This document shows, piece after piece, positions 6,060 through 46,788 of a stretch of 63,808 bases of DNA; position 1 is the stretch's first letter; the number at the start of each line of letters is the position of its first letter. The stretch is from contig JAJZGG010000009.1 in the NCBI GenBank assembly GCA_021804965.1, forward strand, positions 1 through 63,808, in the 5' to 3' direction. A program made the translations under genes and the position numbers. The DNA comes from Acidobacteriota bacterium (GTDB taxonomy: Bacteria; Acidobacteriota; Terriglobia; Terriglobales; Acidobacteriaceae). Under the pieces are notes generated by a model. That model was not told the DNA's origin. It was given only the letters and a program-made list of their open reading frames with translations, and made no database searches.

Positions 6060-6953
6060 GGCAGGTGCGCTGAGCAGGGTGATTTCGGTGATCTCCGGTG
6101 GGCAGTCAAAACGGAAGGGAACGCCGACTGTGCCCAGGCCGCGGTTGACGTAGAGATGCATCTGGCCGACGGTGTACAGCCCCTGCGGGAAAAGTTTGCC
6201 CTTGGGTGGCAAGGTGAGCGCACCGACAAAGGGCAGACGTACCTGTCCGCCGTGGGTGTGGCCGCTGAGCATCAGGCGCACGTTGGCTGCAGCAGGATGG
6301 CGGGCGATGATCACGGCAGGATCCGGCTCATGCCCCAGCAGTAGGATGGGCTCCTGCGGCAGATTGCGGATCGAAGGCGGAATGGTCTTCTCCAGATTAG
6401 GGCGCCCGGAAAGCATGTCATCAATGCCGGCAAGCCAGAAGCGGGCTCCATCGCGCTCGATGGGTACGGACTGGTTGCGCAGGACCGGTATGCCGTGCGC
6501 GGCCAAAGCCTGCACCACGGCCTGCGGGGCAACCTGCGCATCGTGATTGCCGAGAATGCCGTAGCGGATGCGGCAGCGCAGTCCGGAGAGGATGGATGCG
6601 CAGGTCTCCATGGCTTCGGCAGGGAACCTGTTTCCGCCTTCCGAGGTGGTGATGAAATCTCCGGTCAGCATGACGGCATCCGGCTGCATGCGATTGACCT
6701 GATCGACGGCGTGGCGAAGGAAGAATGGCTCGGTCCAGTTTTCCAGATGAATGTCGCTGATCTGCGCCAGACGAAAGCCGTGGAACTGGGAGCGCAGGCC
6801 GGCGATGGGGATGGAGATCTGGCGGTGCTCCAGCCAGTGCCGCTCAATTTCCCCGGCATAGAGCGCCAGCGCAGCGGCACCCAGCGCGGAGCCCTTTAGC
6901 AGATCCCGGCGCGACCATGCCCTGCGGGGACGTTCAGATTGCGATTCCATCAT
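6054..6953 (-). CDS. Secreted metallophosphoesterase of the YkuE/YaeI type
   Basis: The 299-residue protein carries a twin-arginine-like signal (SRRDLLKGSALGAAAL) and then the calcineurin-like phosphoesterase metal motifs: ISDIHLENW, GDFI, GNHD, LLGHEPD and SGHTHGGQ. Family members use two metal ions to hydrolyse phosphoesters, sometimes UDP-diacylglucosamine-like lipids; the substrate here is unknown. I chose ATG 6953 because GAAAGG lies 8 nt upstream and the Tat motif follows directly. Longer in-frame starts would run into the rpsA terminator hairpin. The 3' end overlaps the convergent MFS gene by 6 nt. Confidence 0.85.
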   Translation of the reverse strand: MMESQSERPRRAWSRRDLLKGSALGAAALALYAGEIERHWLEHRQISIPIAGLRSQFHGFRLAQISDIHLENWTEPFFLRHAVDQVNRMQPDAVMLTGDFITTSEGGNRFPAEAMETCASILSGLRCRIRYGILGNHDAQVAPQAVVQALAAHGIPVLRNQSVPIERDGARFWLAGIDDMLSGRPNLEKTIPPSIRNLPQEPILLLGHEPDPAVIIARHPAAANVRLMLSGHTHGGQVRLPFVGALTLPPKGKLFPQGLYTVGQMHLYVNRGLGTVGVPFRFDCPPEITEITLLSAPAL

Positions 6954-43432: not shown

Positions 43433-44188
43433 ATGCGAATCCCTGCGTTGCTCCGAGGAAATTCAAAGCTGAGGCTCGCGCTTCCGGGGTATTGGCTGGC
43501 GCTGCTTTCTGTTCTGCTGCTCAGCGGCTGCTCCCACCATGCGCGCACCTCGCGCAGTGCGACGGCTCCCGCAGTGGAGACCAGCCAGCCGGAGTCCTCG
43601 ACGGTTTCCGAGGCCGATGAGCGCTTCGTGCGCCATCATGCTCCGCTGGAAACCCTGCATGGCATGGCCAGTTGGTACGGGCCGCAATACAACCATCGTC
43701 GCGCTGCCAATGGGCAGATTTACGATCAGAACGCCGTAACGGCGGCCAATCGGACGCTGCCACTGAACACGCTGGTGCGTGTGACCAATGAGCGTACCGG
43801 CCAGTCGGCGCTGATGTATATCACCGATCGCGGCCCATTTGTGCCAGGGCGCATTCTGGATCTTTCCCGGGCCGCCGCCCACAAGACCGGAGTGTATCTG
43901 GCGGGTGTTGCGCCGGTGCGGATCGATGTCTACAGAGCGCCGTCATCGTTGACCGAGGGCGGTCGCTGGGCAGTGCAGATCGGCGCGTTCCAGAATACGG
44001 GCAAGGCGCTGCGGCTGAAGCACAAACTGCAGCAACACTATCCCAATGCGCAGGTGATCGACTTCGCCGGTCCCACCGGCCACTGGGTGCGCATTCGACC
44101 GGCTGGAGAGCGGCGATCGGTGGCGGAGTCCATCCAGCGCCATCTTCATCCTGCCGAGGGGAATGCCTATCTGGTGCGTCTGGATTAG
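43433..44188 (+). CDS. rlpA: RlpA-family septal lytic transglycosylase lipoprotein
   Basis: The 251-residue protein has a lipoprotein signal with lipobox LLSGC, a double-psi beta-barrel RlpA domain (MASWYGPQYNHRRAANG, TRVTN-like strand and YITDRGPFVPGRILDLS) and a C-terminal SPOR domain (about 175-250) that targets denuded septal peptidoglycan. RlpA cleaves glycan strands lacking stem peptides and aids daughter-cell separation. The start ATG is close after a weak AAGG. It precedes the fluoride locus but has its own 3' gap. Confidence 0.88.
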   Translation: MRIPALLRGNSKLRLALPGYWLALLSVLLLSGCSHHARTSRSATAPAVETSQPESSTVSEADERFVRHHAPLETLHGMASWYGPQYNHRRAANGQIYDQNAVTAANRTLPLNTLVRVTNERTGQSALMYITDRGPFVPGRILDLSRAAAHKTGVYLAGVAPVRIDVYRAPSSLTEGGRWAVQIGAFQNTGKALRLKHKLQQHYPNAQVIDFAGPTGHWVRIRPAGERRSVAESIQRHLHPAEGNAYLVRLD

Positions 44189-44229: not shown

Positions 44230-44258
44230 TTGACCCGATTTCAGCTCCATGCTAGCCT
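44230..44258 (+). promoter_or_regulatory. Candidate promoter of the fluoride riboswitch transcript
   Basis: TTGACC at 44230-44235 and TAGCCT at 44253-44258 are 17 nt apart. Transcription would begin around 44265, about 18 nt before the aptamer. Confidence 0.5.
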
Positions 44259-44282
44259 CAGTTTTAAATAGGACAAAACAAA

Positions 44283-44360
44283 GGTGATGGAGTTCACCTG
44301 AACCGCAGATCGCGCAGCGGGAATGCGCGGATGCTGATGACTCCTACGGGTAGGAGGAGT
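44283..44360 (+). promoter_or_regulatory. Fluoride riboswitch (crcB motif) controlling the CLC-F gene
   Basis: The aptamer at 44283-44347 contains GGTGATGGAGTTCACC, the conserved AACCGC and CTGATGACTCCTAC, matching the fluoride-sensing crcB RNA closely. CTCCTAC can pair with the following GTAGGAG at 44350-44356, which carries the Shine-Dalgarno AGGAGG of the antiporter gene. Fluoride binding is therefore expected to free the ribosome site (translational control), although the hairpin followed by TTTTG could also end transcription. Confidence 0.9.
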
Positions 44361-44361
44361 T

Positions 44362-46152
44362 TTGTTCGCATCCGTACGAAGTGTTCTGCGTTCCCTGCTG
44401 GATCACGAGCAAATTTATATCTTTCAGGATCAGCTGCGCTGGCTGTGGATCGCCTCTGCAGCGGGCATTCTGGCTGGCACGGCTTCGGCAATTCTGCTTG
44501 CCTCGCTGGAATGGGCCACCGCGTATCGCGAGCATCATCTCTGGATCATTGCGCTGCTGCCTTTGGCCGGCCTGGCGGTGGGGCTGCTGTACCGCTACTA
44601 TGGCCATTCGGTAGAGGCTGGCAATAATCTCATTCTCGATGAGATTCATCTTCCCAAAAGCGTCCTGAAGTTTCGCATGACGCCGCTGATTCTGTTGGGA
44701 ACGGCCATGACGCACCTCTTCGGCGGATCTGCCGGTCGGGAAGGAACTGCCATCCAGACCGGCGCTTCGCTGGCCGATCAGCTGACCCTGCTGCTAGGGT
44801 TGGACCAGCGCGATCGCCGGATCCTGCTGATGGCGGGCCTGAGCGGCGGCTTTGGTTCGGTCTTCGGGACACCGCTGTCCGGTGCCTTCTTTGGGATTGA
44901 AGTGCTGGCAATCGGAAGCCTGGGCTACAGTGCGATTTTTCCCTGCTTTGTGGCCGCCTTCATTGGCGATTTCACCACGCGCGCCTGGGGCATTCACCAT
45001 ACAGTCTTTCAGGTTGCCAGTGTTCCGCAGCTTTCGCCGACCCGCTTTCTGGCAGCGGCTGTGGCGGGCATCGCCTTTGGCCTGACGGGGATGGTCTTTT
45101 CCCGACTTACGCACTGGATTGGCCACTGGGCAAAGCGATCCATCCGCTGGTCTCCGCTGCGTCCGTTTGTGGGCGGCATCCTGGTGGCCTCGGCTGTCTT
45201 TGCGCTAGGAACCACGCAGTTCATCGGGCTTGGCATTCCCACGATTGTGGCAGCATTCCTGCATCGATTGCCCGCGTATGACTTTGCCGCCAAGCTGATT
45301 TTTACAGCTGTTACGCTTGGTTTCGGATTCAAGGGCGGAGAGGTTACACCGCTGTTTTTTATCGGGGCCACGCTGGGCAATGCTCTTTCCGCATGGATTC
45401 CGCTGCCGACCAGTCTGCTTGCCGGCATGGGCTTTGTGGCTGTATTTGCCGGAGCCGCCAACACGCCCATAGCCTCGGCACTGATGGCCATGGAACTCTT
45501 TGGTGCCAAGGCTGGAACCTATGCGGCCATCGCCTGCGTCGTCAGCTATCTGTTCTCCGGGCATGCCGGCATCTACCATGCACAACGCGTGGGCAGCAGC
45601 AAGCACCAGCGCAACCACGTGGATGAGGGACTATCGCTGGCTCGCGTGGCGGAACAACGTCGTCAGGGAACTTCGCCCATTCTGGCGGAAATTGATCAAT
45701 TCGGACTCTTTGAAGGGAGCATTATGGATCATCTCAGTGTACTCAGGCTGTACTTTTCCGCGTCGCAGGTGGTGAAGGCGGACAAGTGGTGGAAGCGCTT
45801 CGCTCCGCAGGGATTAGGAACGCATCTGCTGCAACAGGCCCATGCTGCCGGAATTGAGCAGGCTTTGCTGCAGCGCGTCATCGGAGGCTATCTCAAGAAC
45901 CATGCACTGCTGATGGACAACGGCGAGATCCCGCAGGCCCGACTGCCGCAATGCCTGGAACTGGTGGCAGACGAGGAGAAGCTGCAGGCATTTCTTCGTG
46001 CGCATCAGGAGCATCTCGCGCATGTGCGCATCGTATGGCTACGCGGACAAGAGGCAACGCTTGAAGCAGCTCTGGACCGCGACGAGATTGAGCAGATGAC
46101 GGCCATTGAAGCGGCCGACGAGCAGACCCTGCAGGGTGGCAGCAGCGAATAA
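44362..46152 (+). CDS. CLC-F type fluoride/proton antiporter fused to a C-terminal DUF190 domain
   Basis: This 596-residue protein has the CLC core (about 25-405). It carries features of the fluoride branch: AGNNLILDEIH (GNNLI at 87-91) in place of the usual GSGIP, and GREGT (125-129) with the external gate Glu127. GFKGGEVTPLFFIGA (322-336) is the third CLC motif. After a linker, residues 458-560 (LRLYFSASQ, GIEQALLQRVIGGY, CLELVADEEKLQAF) match DUF190, a PII-like domain usually found as a separate gene beside crcB. Translation begins at TTG 44362, 4 nt after AGGAGG. An internal ATG at 45724 with GAAGGGAG upstream could produce DUF190 alone. It expels fluoride from the cytoplasm. Confidence 0.9.
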   Translation: MFASVRSVLRSLLDHEQIYIFQDQLRWLWIASAAGILAGTASAILLASLEWATAYREHHLWIIALLPLAGLAVGLLYRYYGHSVEAGNNLILDEIHLPKSVLKFRMTPLILLGTAMTHLFGGSAGREGTAIQTGASLADQLTLLLGLDQRDRRILLMAGLSGGFGSVFGTPLSGAFFGIEVLAIGSLGYSAIFPCFVAAFIGDFTTRAWGIHHTVFQVASVPQLSPTRFLAAAVAGIAFGLTGMVFSRLTHWIGHWAKRSIRWSPLRPFVGGILVASAVFALGTTQFIGLGIPTIVAAFLHRLPAYDFAAKLIFTAVTLGFGFKGGEVTPLFFIGATLGNALSAWIPLPTSLLAGMGFVAVFAGAANTPIASALMAMELFGAKAGTYAAIACVVSYLFSGHAGIYHAQRVGSSKHQRNHVDEGLSLARVAEQRRQGTSPILAEIDQFGLFEGSIMDHLSVLRLYFSASQVVKADKWWKRFAPQGLGTHLLQQAHAAGIEQALLQRVIGGYLKNHALLMDNGEIPQARLPQCLELVADEEKLQAFLRAHQEHLAHVRIVWLRGQEATLEAALDRDEIEQMTAIEAADEQTLQGGSSE

Positions 46153-46154
46153 GC

Positions 46155-46577
46155 TCAGCTCGTCAACTCCTCGGAGGCCGTTTCCGCAATCGCCACCTGC
46201 GAGACCGGTTGCATGGCTGCGTAATGGCCGGCTGCAACGGCTGCCAGTCCCAGCGTGGAGGACAGCGCGACGTAGGTGAGCGCGCGCCCCCAATGCCCGG
46301 AGCGCAGCAGATCGAAGGTCTGCAGGCTGAACGAGGAAAAGGTGGTGAATCCACCGCACAGGCCAACCATCACAAACAGGCGCAGATTGTCGGAAGCAGG
46401 ATGACGCCCCCCGTGCAGCGTGAGCGTGCCGAAGTAGCCGATGACAAACGAGCCAACGACGTTGATGATCAGGGTGCCGGTGGGAAATGTGCCGCTGACC
46501 GGCACCGTCCACAGACCCACCAGGTAACGCAACAACCCGCCAATGGCACTGCCCAGCAAAACCCACAAATAAGCCAT
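46155..46577 (-). CDS. crcB: Fluoride channel CrcB (Fluc)
   Basis: The 140-residue protein has four TMs. It shows the Fluc signatures GGLLRYLVGLW, FPTGTLIINVVGSFVIGY and GLCGGFTTFSSFSLQTF, including the Na+-site turn and the Phe box lining the pore. CrcB dimers conduct fluoride out of the cell. It converges with the CLC-F gene, with only 2 nt between stop codons, and is governed by its own riboswitch. RBS is GAGGGAA. Confidence 0.95.
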   Translation of the reverse strand: MAYLWVLLGSAIGGLLRYLVGLWTVPVSGTFPTGTLIINVVGSFVIGYFGTLTLHGGRHPASDNLRLFVMVGLCGGFTTFSSFSLQTFDLLRSGHWGRALTYVALSSTLGLAAVAAGHYAAMQPVSQVAIAETASEELTS

Positions 46578-46609
46578 GAATTCCCTCGCGCGAATCCGAT
46601 TGGAGTTTT

Positions 46610-46670
46610 GGCAGAAGTCATCAGCCAGCGGCAGTTGTCCGGCAGGCGGTTAGCGGGAGACTTCATTCCC
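46610..46670 (-). promoter_or_regulatory. Second fluoride riboswitch, controlling crcB
   Basis: On the minus strand GGGAATGAAGTCTCCC, then CTAACCGCC, then CTGATGACTTCTGCC reproduce the crcB-motif core, ending 33 nt before the crcB ATG. The sequence is clearly different from the aptamer at 44283, so it is not a recent copy. Confidence 0.85.
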
Positions 46671-46788
46671 GTTGCGATGATGATACCTCAAGGGAAGGGA
46701 AGGCGTGCCGGAGGTACAGGCTTTCACCGTAGAGTCCATTGCCATCCACCACGGGAAATTGGTTTTGGATACAATATGCGCCAGACCG

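Follow-up and report, generated by a model that had tools for sequence, protein, structure and literature searches.

We describe a locus in which two unrelated fluoride exporter genes of a soil bacterium, one encoding a CLC-F F−/H+ antiporter and the other (crcB) the fluoride channel Fluc, adjoin each other, each with its own fluoride riboswitch. It lies in a window of 63,808 nucleotides (nt) from an Acidobacteriota bacterium of the family Acidobacteriaceae (assembly GCA_021804965.1, contig JAJZGG010000009.1, positions 1 to 63,808), by which we mean the whole stretch analysed. We consider it likely that this two-exporter fluoride resistance locus was built by gene gain, a CLC-F cassette with a CTCCTAC-type switch having joined a resident crcB gene and its riboswitch. 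The two genes converge with their stop codons 2 nt apart, and an Infernal search against Rfam returns exactly two matches to RF01734 in the window, both above the gathering cut-off of 34 bits (Table 1); a search of the assembly (G000, 87.5% complete) at E ≤ 0.001 yielded no aptamer beyond these two. The initial annotation of this DNA had described convergent CLC-F and crcB genes, each with a crcB-motif riboswitch, and had proposed a covariance-model (CM) search and a comparison across relatives as checks. The gene and riboswitch assignments are borne out by RF01734, Pfam, TIGR00494 and the structure 6d0j, both aptamers scoring above the cut-off, and its aptamer coordinates (44283-44360 and 46610-46670) lie no more than 9 nt from the CM boundaries.

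Table 1. Features of the two-exporter locus, in window coordinates
Feature	Position	Strand	Basis
rlpA-like gene (DPBB + SPOR), left border of the putatively inserted cassette	43433..44188	+	Pfam
Putative sigma-70-like promoter of the CLC-F gene, TTGACC - 17 nt - TAGCCT	44230..44258	+	read from sequence
Fluoride riboswitch aptamer of the CLC-F gene	44274..44353	+	RF01734, 52.4 bits, E 1.2e-11
Pseudoknot 5' strand GGAGT (partner ACTCC, 44340-44344)	44289..44293	+	pseudoknot covariation
Predicted switch hairpin, (A)CTCCTAC against TAGGAG of the Shine-Dalgarno AGGAGG (44352-44357)	44340..44357	+	complementarity, predicted fold
CLC-F F−/H+ antiporter with C-terminal DUF190, 596 aa, TTG start	44362..46152	+	PF00654 (Voltage_CLC), 241 bits
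Shine-Dalgarno-like GAAGGGAG before in-frame internal ATG (putative internal start)	45712..45719	+	Shine-Dalgarno duplex -7.6 kcal/mol
DUF190 (PII-like) domain, possibly also a free protein	45724..46152	+	PF02641, 26.6 bits (cut-off 23.4)
crcB (Fluc fluoride channel), 140 aa	46155..46577	-	PF02537 (CRCB), 100.5 bits (cut-off 32.9)
crcB Shine-Dalgarno GAGGG, 5 nt before ATG	46583..46587	-	read from sequence
Fluoride riboswitch aptamer of crcB	46605..46679	-	RF01734, 47.6 bits, E 4.2e-10

The window's CLC gene is closer to CLC-F than to chloride CLC structures: its best matches are 6d0j (E = 2.8e-56), 6d0k and 6d0n, which together span 2.8e-56 to 3.2e-55, and the next is 3nd0 at 0.0031. According to PMC11139923 CLC-F proteins are marked by the signatures GNNLI/GMGLI, GREGT/V and GEVTP, and GNNLI, GREGT and GEVTP are all present in the translated protein. 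Residues 31-413 align with 6d0j, from which the protein differs by a C-terminal extension of ~180 residues that holds a DUF190 domain; selectivity for F− over Cl− and F−/H+ exchange are predicted from the family. The crcB product resembles known Fluc/CrcB proteins in matching both PF02537 and TIGR00494 (94.9, cut-off 80.45); its top NCBIfam row, NF010802, scores 132.2, below its own cut-off of 140.

The two aptamers are of two different types. Their cores are 72% identical, with the CLC-F aptamer averaging 87% core identity to other CLC-F aptamers and the crcB aptamer 90% to the 13 crcB aptamers compared, which agrees with the earlier statement that the two differ strongly in sequence. Helix P1 and the long-range pseudoknot are present in both, and the differences within them are compensatory: the pseudoknot is GAAGT/ACTTC in the crcB type and GGAGT/ACTCC in the CLC-F type, and one P1 pair is A-U in the former where the latter has G-C. 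Across 55 aptamers, P1 and the pseudoknot together contain 43 cells changed on both sides, compared with 13.4 after shuffling and 0-19 with slid partners, a count over related sequences and not a probability; the pseudoknot helix is paired in 98.9% and shows both-side changes in 2 of its 5 pairs. Both folds have thus been kept despite the differences. Relative to RF01734, the likeness lies in scores above the gathering cut-off and in covarying P1 and pseudoknot, and the difference in having two aptamers of two types on opposite strands of one locus. Scores, folds, covariation and the complementarity described below together support the proposal of two independent, intact aptamers with different downstream platforms; both presumably bind fluoride and switch expression on.

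The CLC-F switch looks translational, judging by its leader. Leaders were drawn from 37 CLC-F loci, 34 of them in 33 of 250 genomes of the family and the others in genomes G218, G123 and G187; 35 were used, G072 and G556 being left out because no match over the Rfam cut-off lay near the gene (the G556 gene, locus L164, is preceded by a 39.9-bit match to our own aptamer model). The TTG start lies 8 nt past the aptamer end, with AGGAGG 4 nt before it, and in 30 of the 35 leaders GTAGGAG, the full complement of the pseudoknot strand CTCCTAC, lies no more than 30 nt past the aptamer and overlaps the Shine-Dalgarno. A local hairpin is significant against shuffled sequences (p ≤ 0.05) in 32 of 35, in a test whose automatic start was misplaced for L142. 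When the pseudoknot strands were held in an energy model, mean access to the Shine-Dalgarno rose in 10 of 12 CLC-F leaders, stayed the same in L072 and fell slightly in L069. Because the modelled change is small in the window's own leader and some automatic starts were misplaced, we base the mechanism on the conserved complementarity: without fluoride the CTCCTAC strand would pair with the Shine-Dalgarno GTAGGAGG and block CLC-F translation, and with fluoride the same strand would be kept in the aptamer pseudoknot, leaving the ribosome site free. Compared with RF01734 at large, the platform of this switch is reduced to the complement of a pseudoknot strand lying on the Shine-Dalgarno. The initial annotation had the aptamer covering the Shine-Dalgarno, which is nearly so: its pseudoknot strand is complementary to AGGAGG, but the aptamer ends beside that motif. 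Upstream, TTGAC-N17..19-TAnnnT occurs within 60 nt of the aptamer in 17 of the 35 leaders; a generic site scan did not have the window's TTGACC/TAGCCT among its sites.

The crcB switch would also be fluoride-ON and probably translational. Its aptamer, with the pseudoknot formed by 46660-46664 and 46614-46618, stands at the same place in relatives of the genus, where the core is 92-98% identical in six members of the clade and the pseudoknot is intact. The CM boundary lies 27 nt before the ATG, not 33 nt as first described, and the accompanying remark that no terminator is obvious holds, in that a pattern scan of this leader lists no terminator-like site. In G066, G197, G399, G033, G218 and G123 the aptamer end (TCTGCC or CCTGCC) can pair, in predicted folds, with GGCAGA or GGCAGG at the ribosome site; this pairing, sought together with pairing of the start codon in the crcB leaders of the window's clade, is absent there. 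Across 15 crcB leaders the energy model gives no consistent direction of Shine-Dalgarno access; the row for L071 (G212) took a start 49 nt past the aptamer, the crcB frame lying 260 nt past it, and is uninformative. Automatic starts in the hairpin test fell inside or before the Shine-Dalgarno in several leaders of the clade and overshot the start of the window's crcB by 11 nt, so the crcB leaders were judged by inspection of the sequence. A further arrangement was seen in G212, where the crcB leader (L071 5942-6018, minus strand) has a terminator-like hairpin that includes the pseudoknot strand of the aptamer, a feature not seen in the window's clade. The CLC-F switch divergent from it is of the Shine-Dalgarno type, so that outputs apparently differ within one locus.

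CLC-F and crcB are usually alternatives: PMC11139923 describes them as mostly mutually exclusive, with ~3% of its surveyed strains having both. The same holds in the family, where among 250 genomes CLC-F is found in 33, crcB in 205 and both in 12, against 27 (27.06) expected (Fisher 2e-10), absence of crcB meaning that a genome is missing from the list of 205 with a crcB match. The window thus departs from the usual Fluc/CrcB system in having both exporters in one locus.

Comparison with relatives suggests how this came about. In six of them (G404, G408, G406, G221, G405 and G403) the stop codons of the rlpA-like gene and of crcB lie near each other with no CLC-F between them, so the switch-CLC-F cassette was probably inserted at this junction. 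Ten of 11 other genomes of the genus have no CLC-F match, and the remaining one, G401, has two. One of these is the sister of the window's gene in the tree (support 99/93) and has its own riboswitch and no crcB in its 15-kb stretch; by identity the CLC-F of G033 is nearer to the window's gene (77%, against 73% for G401). We therefore picture a resident crcB that would already have had its own fluoride riboswitch, and a cassette consisting of promoter, fluoride riboswitch and CLC-F gene with DUF190 tail that would have entered the rlpA-crcB junction in convergent orientation to crcB, keeping its own switch. Two further relatives differ at this junction. In G402 a 317-residue open frame (L081 5673-6626, plus strand), hydrophobic by reading, sits between rlpA and crcB at the site of CLC-F, so the junction may be a site of gene turnover; in G399 ~1.6 kb separate the two genes, with other open frames and no CLC-F match. 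Pairs of CLC-F and crcB with own switches were found in six genomes and three orientations, convergent in G066, tandem in G033, G218 and G123 and divergent in G212 and G301 (with the crcB switch of G212 standing 260 nt ahead of its gene). As an RF01734 match over the cut-off lies just upstream of CLC-F in 32 of the 34 family loci, the simpler reason for the two switches would be that a switch usually comes along with either exporter gene.

The CLC-F gene also carries a tail that was not mentioned in the initial annotation. The tail matches PF02641 on its own (the full-length 596-aa protein, at 23.1, falls slightly short of the cut-off of 23.4), as do 9 of 9 homologous tails at E ≤ 0.01, and a profile search with it finds TM0021 (1o51) at E = 0.0014. 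An AlphaFold2 model of the single chain (pLDDT 80.7, pTM 0.67) has as its best PDB matches in Foldseek PH1503 (2dcl, E = 1.1e-6), CPII and TM0021 (E = 2.5e-5), with TM values normalised by target of 0.72 for PH1503 and 0.79 for TM0021; CutA, GlnK1 and SbtB (7egk) entries are also matched. The modelled tail is thus like TM0021 and PH1503 in fold, that is, PII-like, sharing a sequence profile with the first and a predicted fold with both; it differs from them in sharing one open frame with a transporter. PII proteins such as SbtB and GlnK bind and control their transporters, SbtA and AmtB. The window's DUF190 belongs to the same fold class by its matches to 7egk and GlnK1, and a regulatory role here would be by analogy.

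An in-frame ATG opens the DUF190 part in all 12 fused genes examined, preceded by a Shine-Dalgarno-like stretch that is the strongest among the in-frame Met sites in 11 of the 12; in the window none of the 9 further in-frame Met sites scored has as strong a duplex. A Met is aligned at the same place in 5 of 7 separate DUF190 proteins, and the glycine codon within the stretch is GGA or GGG in 10 of 12 fused genes against 4.5 expected (P = 0.001, kinship ignored). With an internal ATG behind so strong a Shine-Dalgarno-like stretch, free DUF190 may be made from the same mRNA.

DUF190 is associated with both exporters. Of 56 DUF190 matches in 40 related genomes, 50, spread over 33 of 36 genomes, follow crcB on its own strand within 2.5 kb. 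G000 has a single match, the fused copy itself, and the same search of nine genus mates (G221, G260, G378, G408, G399, G407, G406, G405 and G402) found none. In several family genomes crcB is followed by a run of two or three DUF190 matches (G224:C1:11027-13009; L244-L248). DUF190 is fused to CLC-F in two species of Acidipila, in Granulicella mallensis and in Acidobacteriaceae bacterium TAA 166; in Herbaspirillum, Dyella, Burkholderia, Caballeronia, Leeuwenhoekiella, Galbibacter, Chryseobacterium and a Bacteroidota metagenome-assembled genome it is encoded separately, directly behind CLC-F. Among the 33 CLC-F genomes the fusion occurs in 10 of the 12 with crcB (the two without it are G033 and G215; G401 also has an unfused copy) and in none of the 21 without (Fisher 7e-7, kinship ignored). 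Among 49 named genomes crcB is present in 12 of 13 with DUF190 at CLC-F and in 8 of 36 without (p = 1e-5, kinship ignored), or, outside Acidobacteria, in 8 of 9 and 8 of 29 (p = 0.002; 0.005 without L222, which was counted as DUF190-bearing though its DUF190 is 1.7 kb away). This comparison used 50 of 80 loci (the best 80 of 585), namely 14 with DUF190 in reach and the first 36 others in listed order, with DUF190 identified by tblastn at 1e-4, by which divergent copies may be missed. We claim the association for Acidobacteriaceae and CLC-F neighbourhoods only. A search of open-licence PMC papers found none with both "DUF190" and "fluoride".

This association points to a tentative proposal, which we think possible but would not call probable, that DUF190 is a PII-like regulator letting the usually exclusive exporters coexist, with fusion and free form made in a fluoride-dependent ratio. 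If a passive Fluc channel and a proton-driven CLC-F were open at the same time, fluoride would leak back and proton motive force would be wasted; DUF190 would act as a gate on one exporter during the other's activity, so coupling antiporter and channel, and one fluoride-switched mRNA could yield both an antiporter-regulator fusion and free regulator in proportions that depend on fluoride.

Several observations weigh against the account given so far. As to the origin, the convergent layout recurs in G066 (3-nt gap), so that the arrangement could be an old one lost in most members of the genus; insertion, as opposed to loss elsewhere, still seems to us the better explanation. The G+C content of CLC-F (0.594) lies within the range of its neighbours (0.594-0.631) and that at third codon positions (0.669) slightly below theirs (0.693-0.766), so composition, uninformative in this case, gives no clear sign of a recent foreign origin. 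As to the switches, the window's CLC-F hairpin is one of the three in 35 that miss p = 0.05 (p = 0.085), and its Shine-Dalgarno becomes unpaired only from 0.38 in the apo state to 0.49 with the pseudoknot held. The hairpin might instead be an intrinsic terminator, making the switch transcriptional: a terminator pattern scan lists CTCCTACGGGTAGGAG followed by GAGTTTTGTT in this leader, and the 10-pair terminator-like hairpin of the G212 crcB leader, with GTCTGTTTTT, uses the same aptamer strand. The window's T-run is however weak and separated by GAG, and a comparable run follows the hairpin in none of 11 other CLC-F leaders, whereas the Shine-Dalgarno complement is nearly universal, which makes a terminator very unlikely. 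In the crcB leader Shine-Dalgarno access is unchanged with the pseudoknot strands held (0.60 and 0.60) and the hairpin is unremarkable against shuffles (p = 0.53). Together with the lack of a terminator-like site and of the relatives' TCTGCC/GGCAGA or CCTGCC/GGCAGG pairing, this would fit a switch that has lost regulation in the window's clade, with crcB constitutive and CLC-F the sole inducible exporter; but a useless aptamer should decay, and given the conservation of its core and pseudoknot in the clade we find such a loss decidedly improbable, and keep to an ON switch for crcB.

DUF190 is found in 84 of 299 Pseudomonadota genomes, and among the best 30 loci there (up to 1.5 kb on each side) it stands beside crcB in 6 and beside CLC-F in none, while 8 of 10 loci read, of the 24 without crcB, have DUF190 followed by a CRP/FNR-type gene. 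These contexts count against a dedicated coupling role and suggest a more general PII-like module, and an exclusive link of the family to fluoride is rejected by them. The second context (cNMP_binding + HTH_Crp_2) was seen in L254, L258, L260, L263, L265, L272, L274 and L278. Plain redundancy, in which the exporters happen to adjoin with the switch typical of each and DUF190 rides along without coupling them, gains further from the varied geometry of CLC-F/crcB pairs and from genomes in which fused CLC-F and crcB are on different contigs (G087, G431 and G472). It is a serious possibility, although on balance we doubt it: the fusion tracks crcB presence in the family and the named genomes alike, and, while those counts ignore kinship, fused and unfused CLC-F rows interleave on the tree. 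The initial annotation had suggested a staged response, in which aptamers of different fluoride affinity turn on a low-turnover antiporter and a fast channel at different fluoride levels. The aptamer cores do differ, an A-U replaces a G-C in the crcB pseudoknot, the downstream platforms differ, and a table in PMC11139923 gives turnovers of ~800 and > 100000 ions/s for the two exporters. However, these differences are common to other aptamers of each type and not special to this locus, and CLC-F genes without crcB nearby share the CLC-F aptamer type, so that tuning for the pairing is not apparent; staging by affinity, for which the computed differences are the ordinary ones between two types, is in our view unlikely.

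Other loci rich in fluoride riboswitches came to light in the same searches. Two genomes of the window's genus have riboswitch islands, with 17 aptamer matches in ~60 kb, 15 over the cut-off (G401:C1:1434895-1495344, L086-L089), and 12 in ~55 kb, 10 over the cut-off (G400:C12:776939-832448, L092-L095); some of the next genes were assigned by Pfam to pyrophosphatase, MutS_V, NADHdh, outer-membrane efflux, Usp, cyclopropane synthase, CLC and altronate-hydrolase-like families, and enolase is a reading of two translations. PMC11139923 names S. cattleya and Methylobacterium DM4 as making extensive use of riboswitches. Possible true tandem riboswitches are seen as same-strand aptamer pairs 24 nt apart in G015 (C82:45217-45276 and 45301-45363, plus strand) and 28 nt apart in G045 (C131:5993-6054 and 6083-6144, minus strand), and in a sample of the class, G364, G168, G232, G184, G120 and G241 have 9 to 12 matches each.

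Every part of the locus comes from a known family; what is unusual is that two exporters that are usually alternatives, each with its own sensor, share one locus, which makes it a natural test of interference between CrcB and CLC-F. The CLC-F switch would be a compact example of an aptamer strand able to act directly as an anti-Shine-Dalgarno. The association of DUF190 with both exporters, with CLC-F in several phyla, points to a function for this uncharacterised PII-like family.

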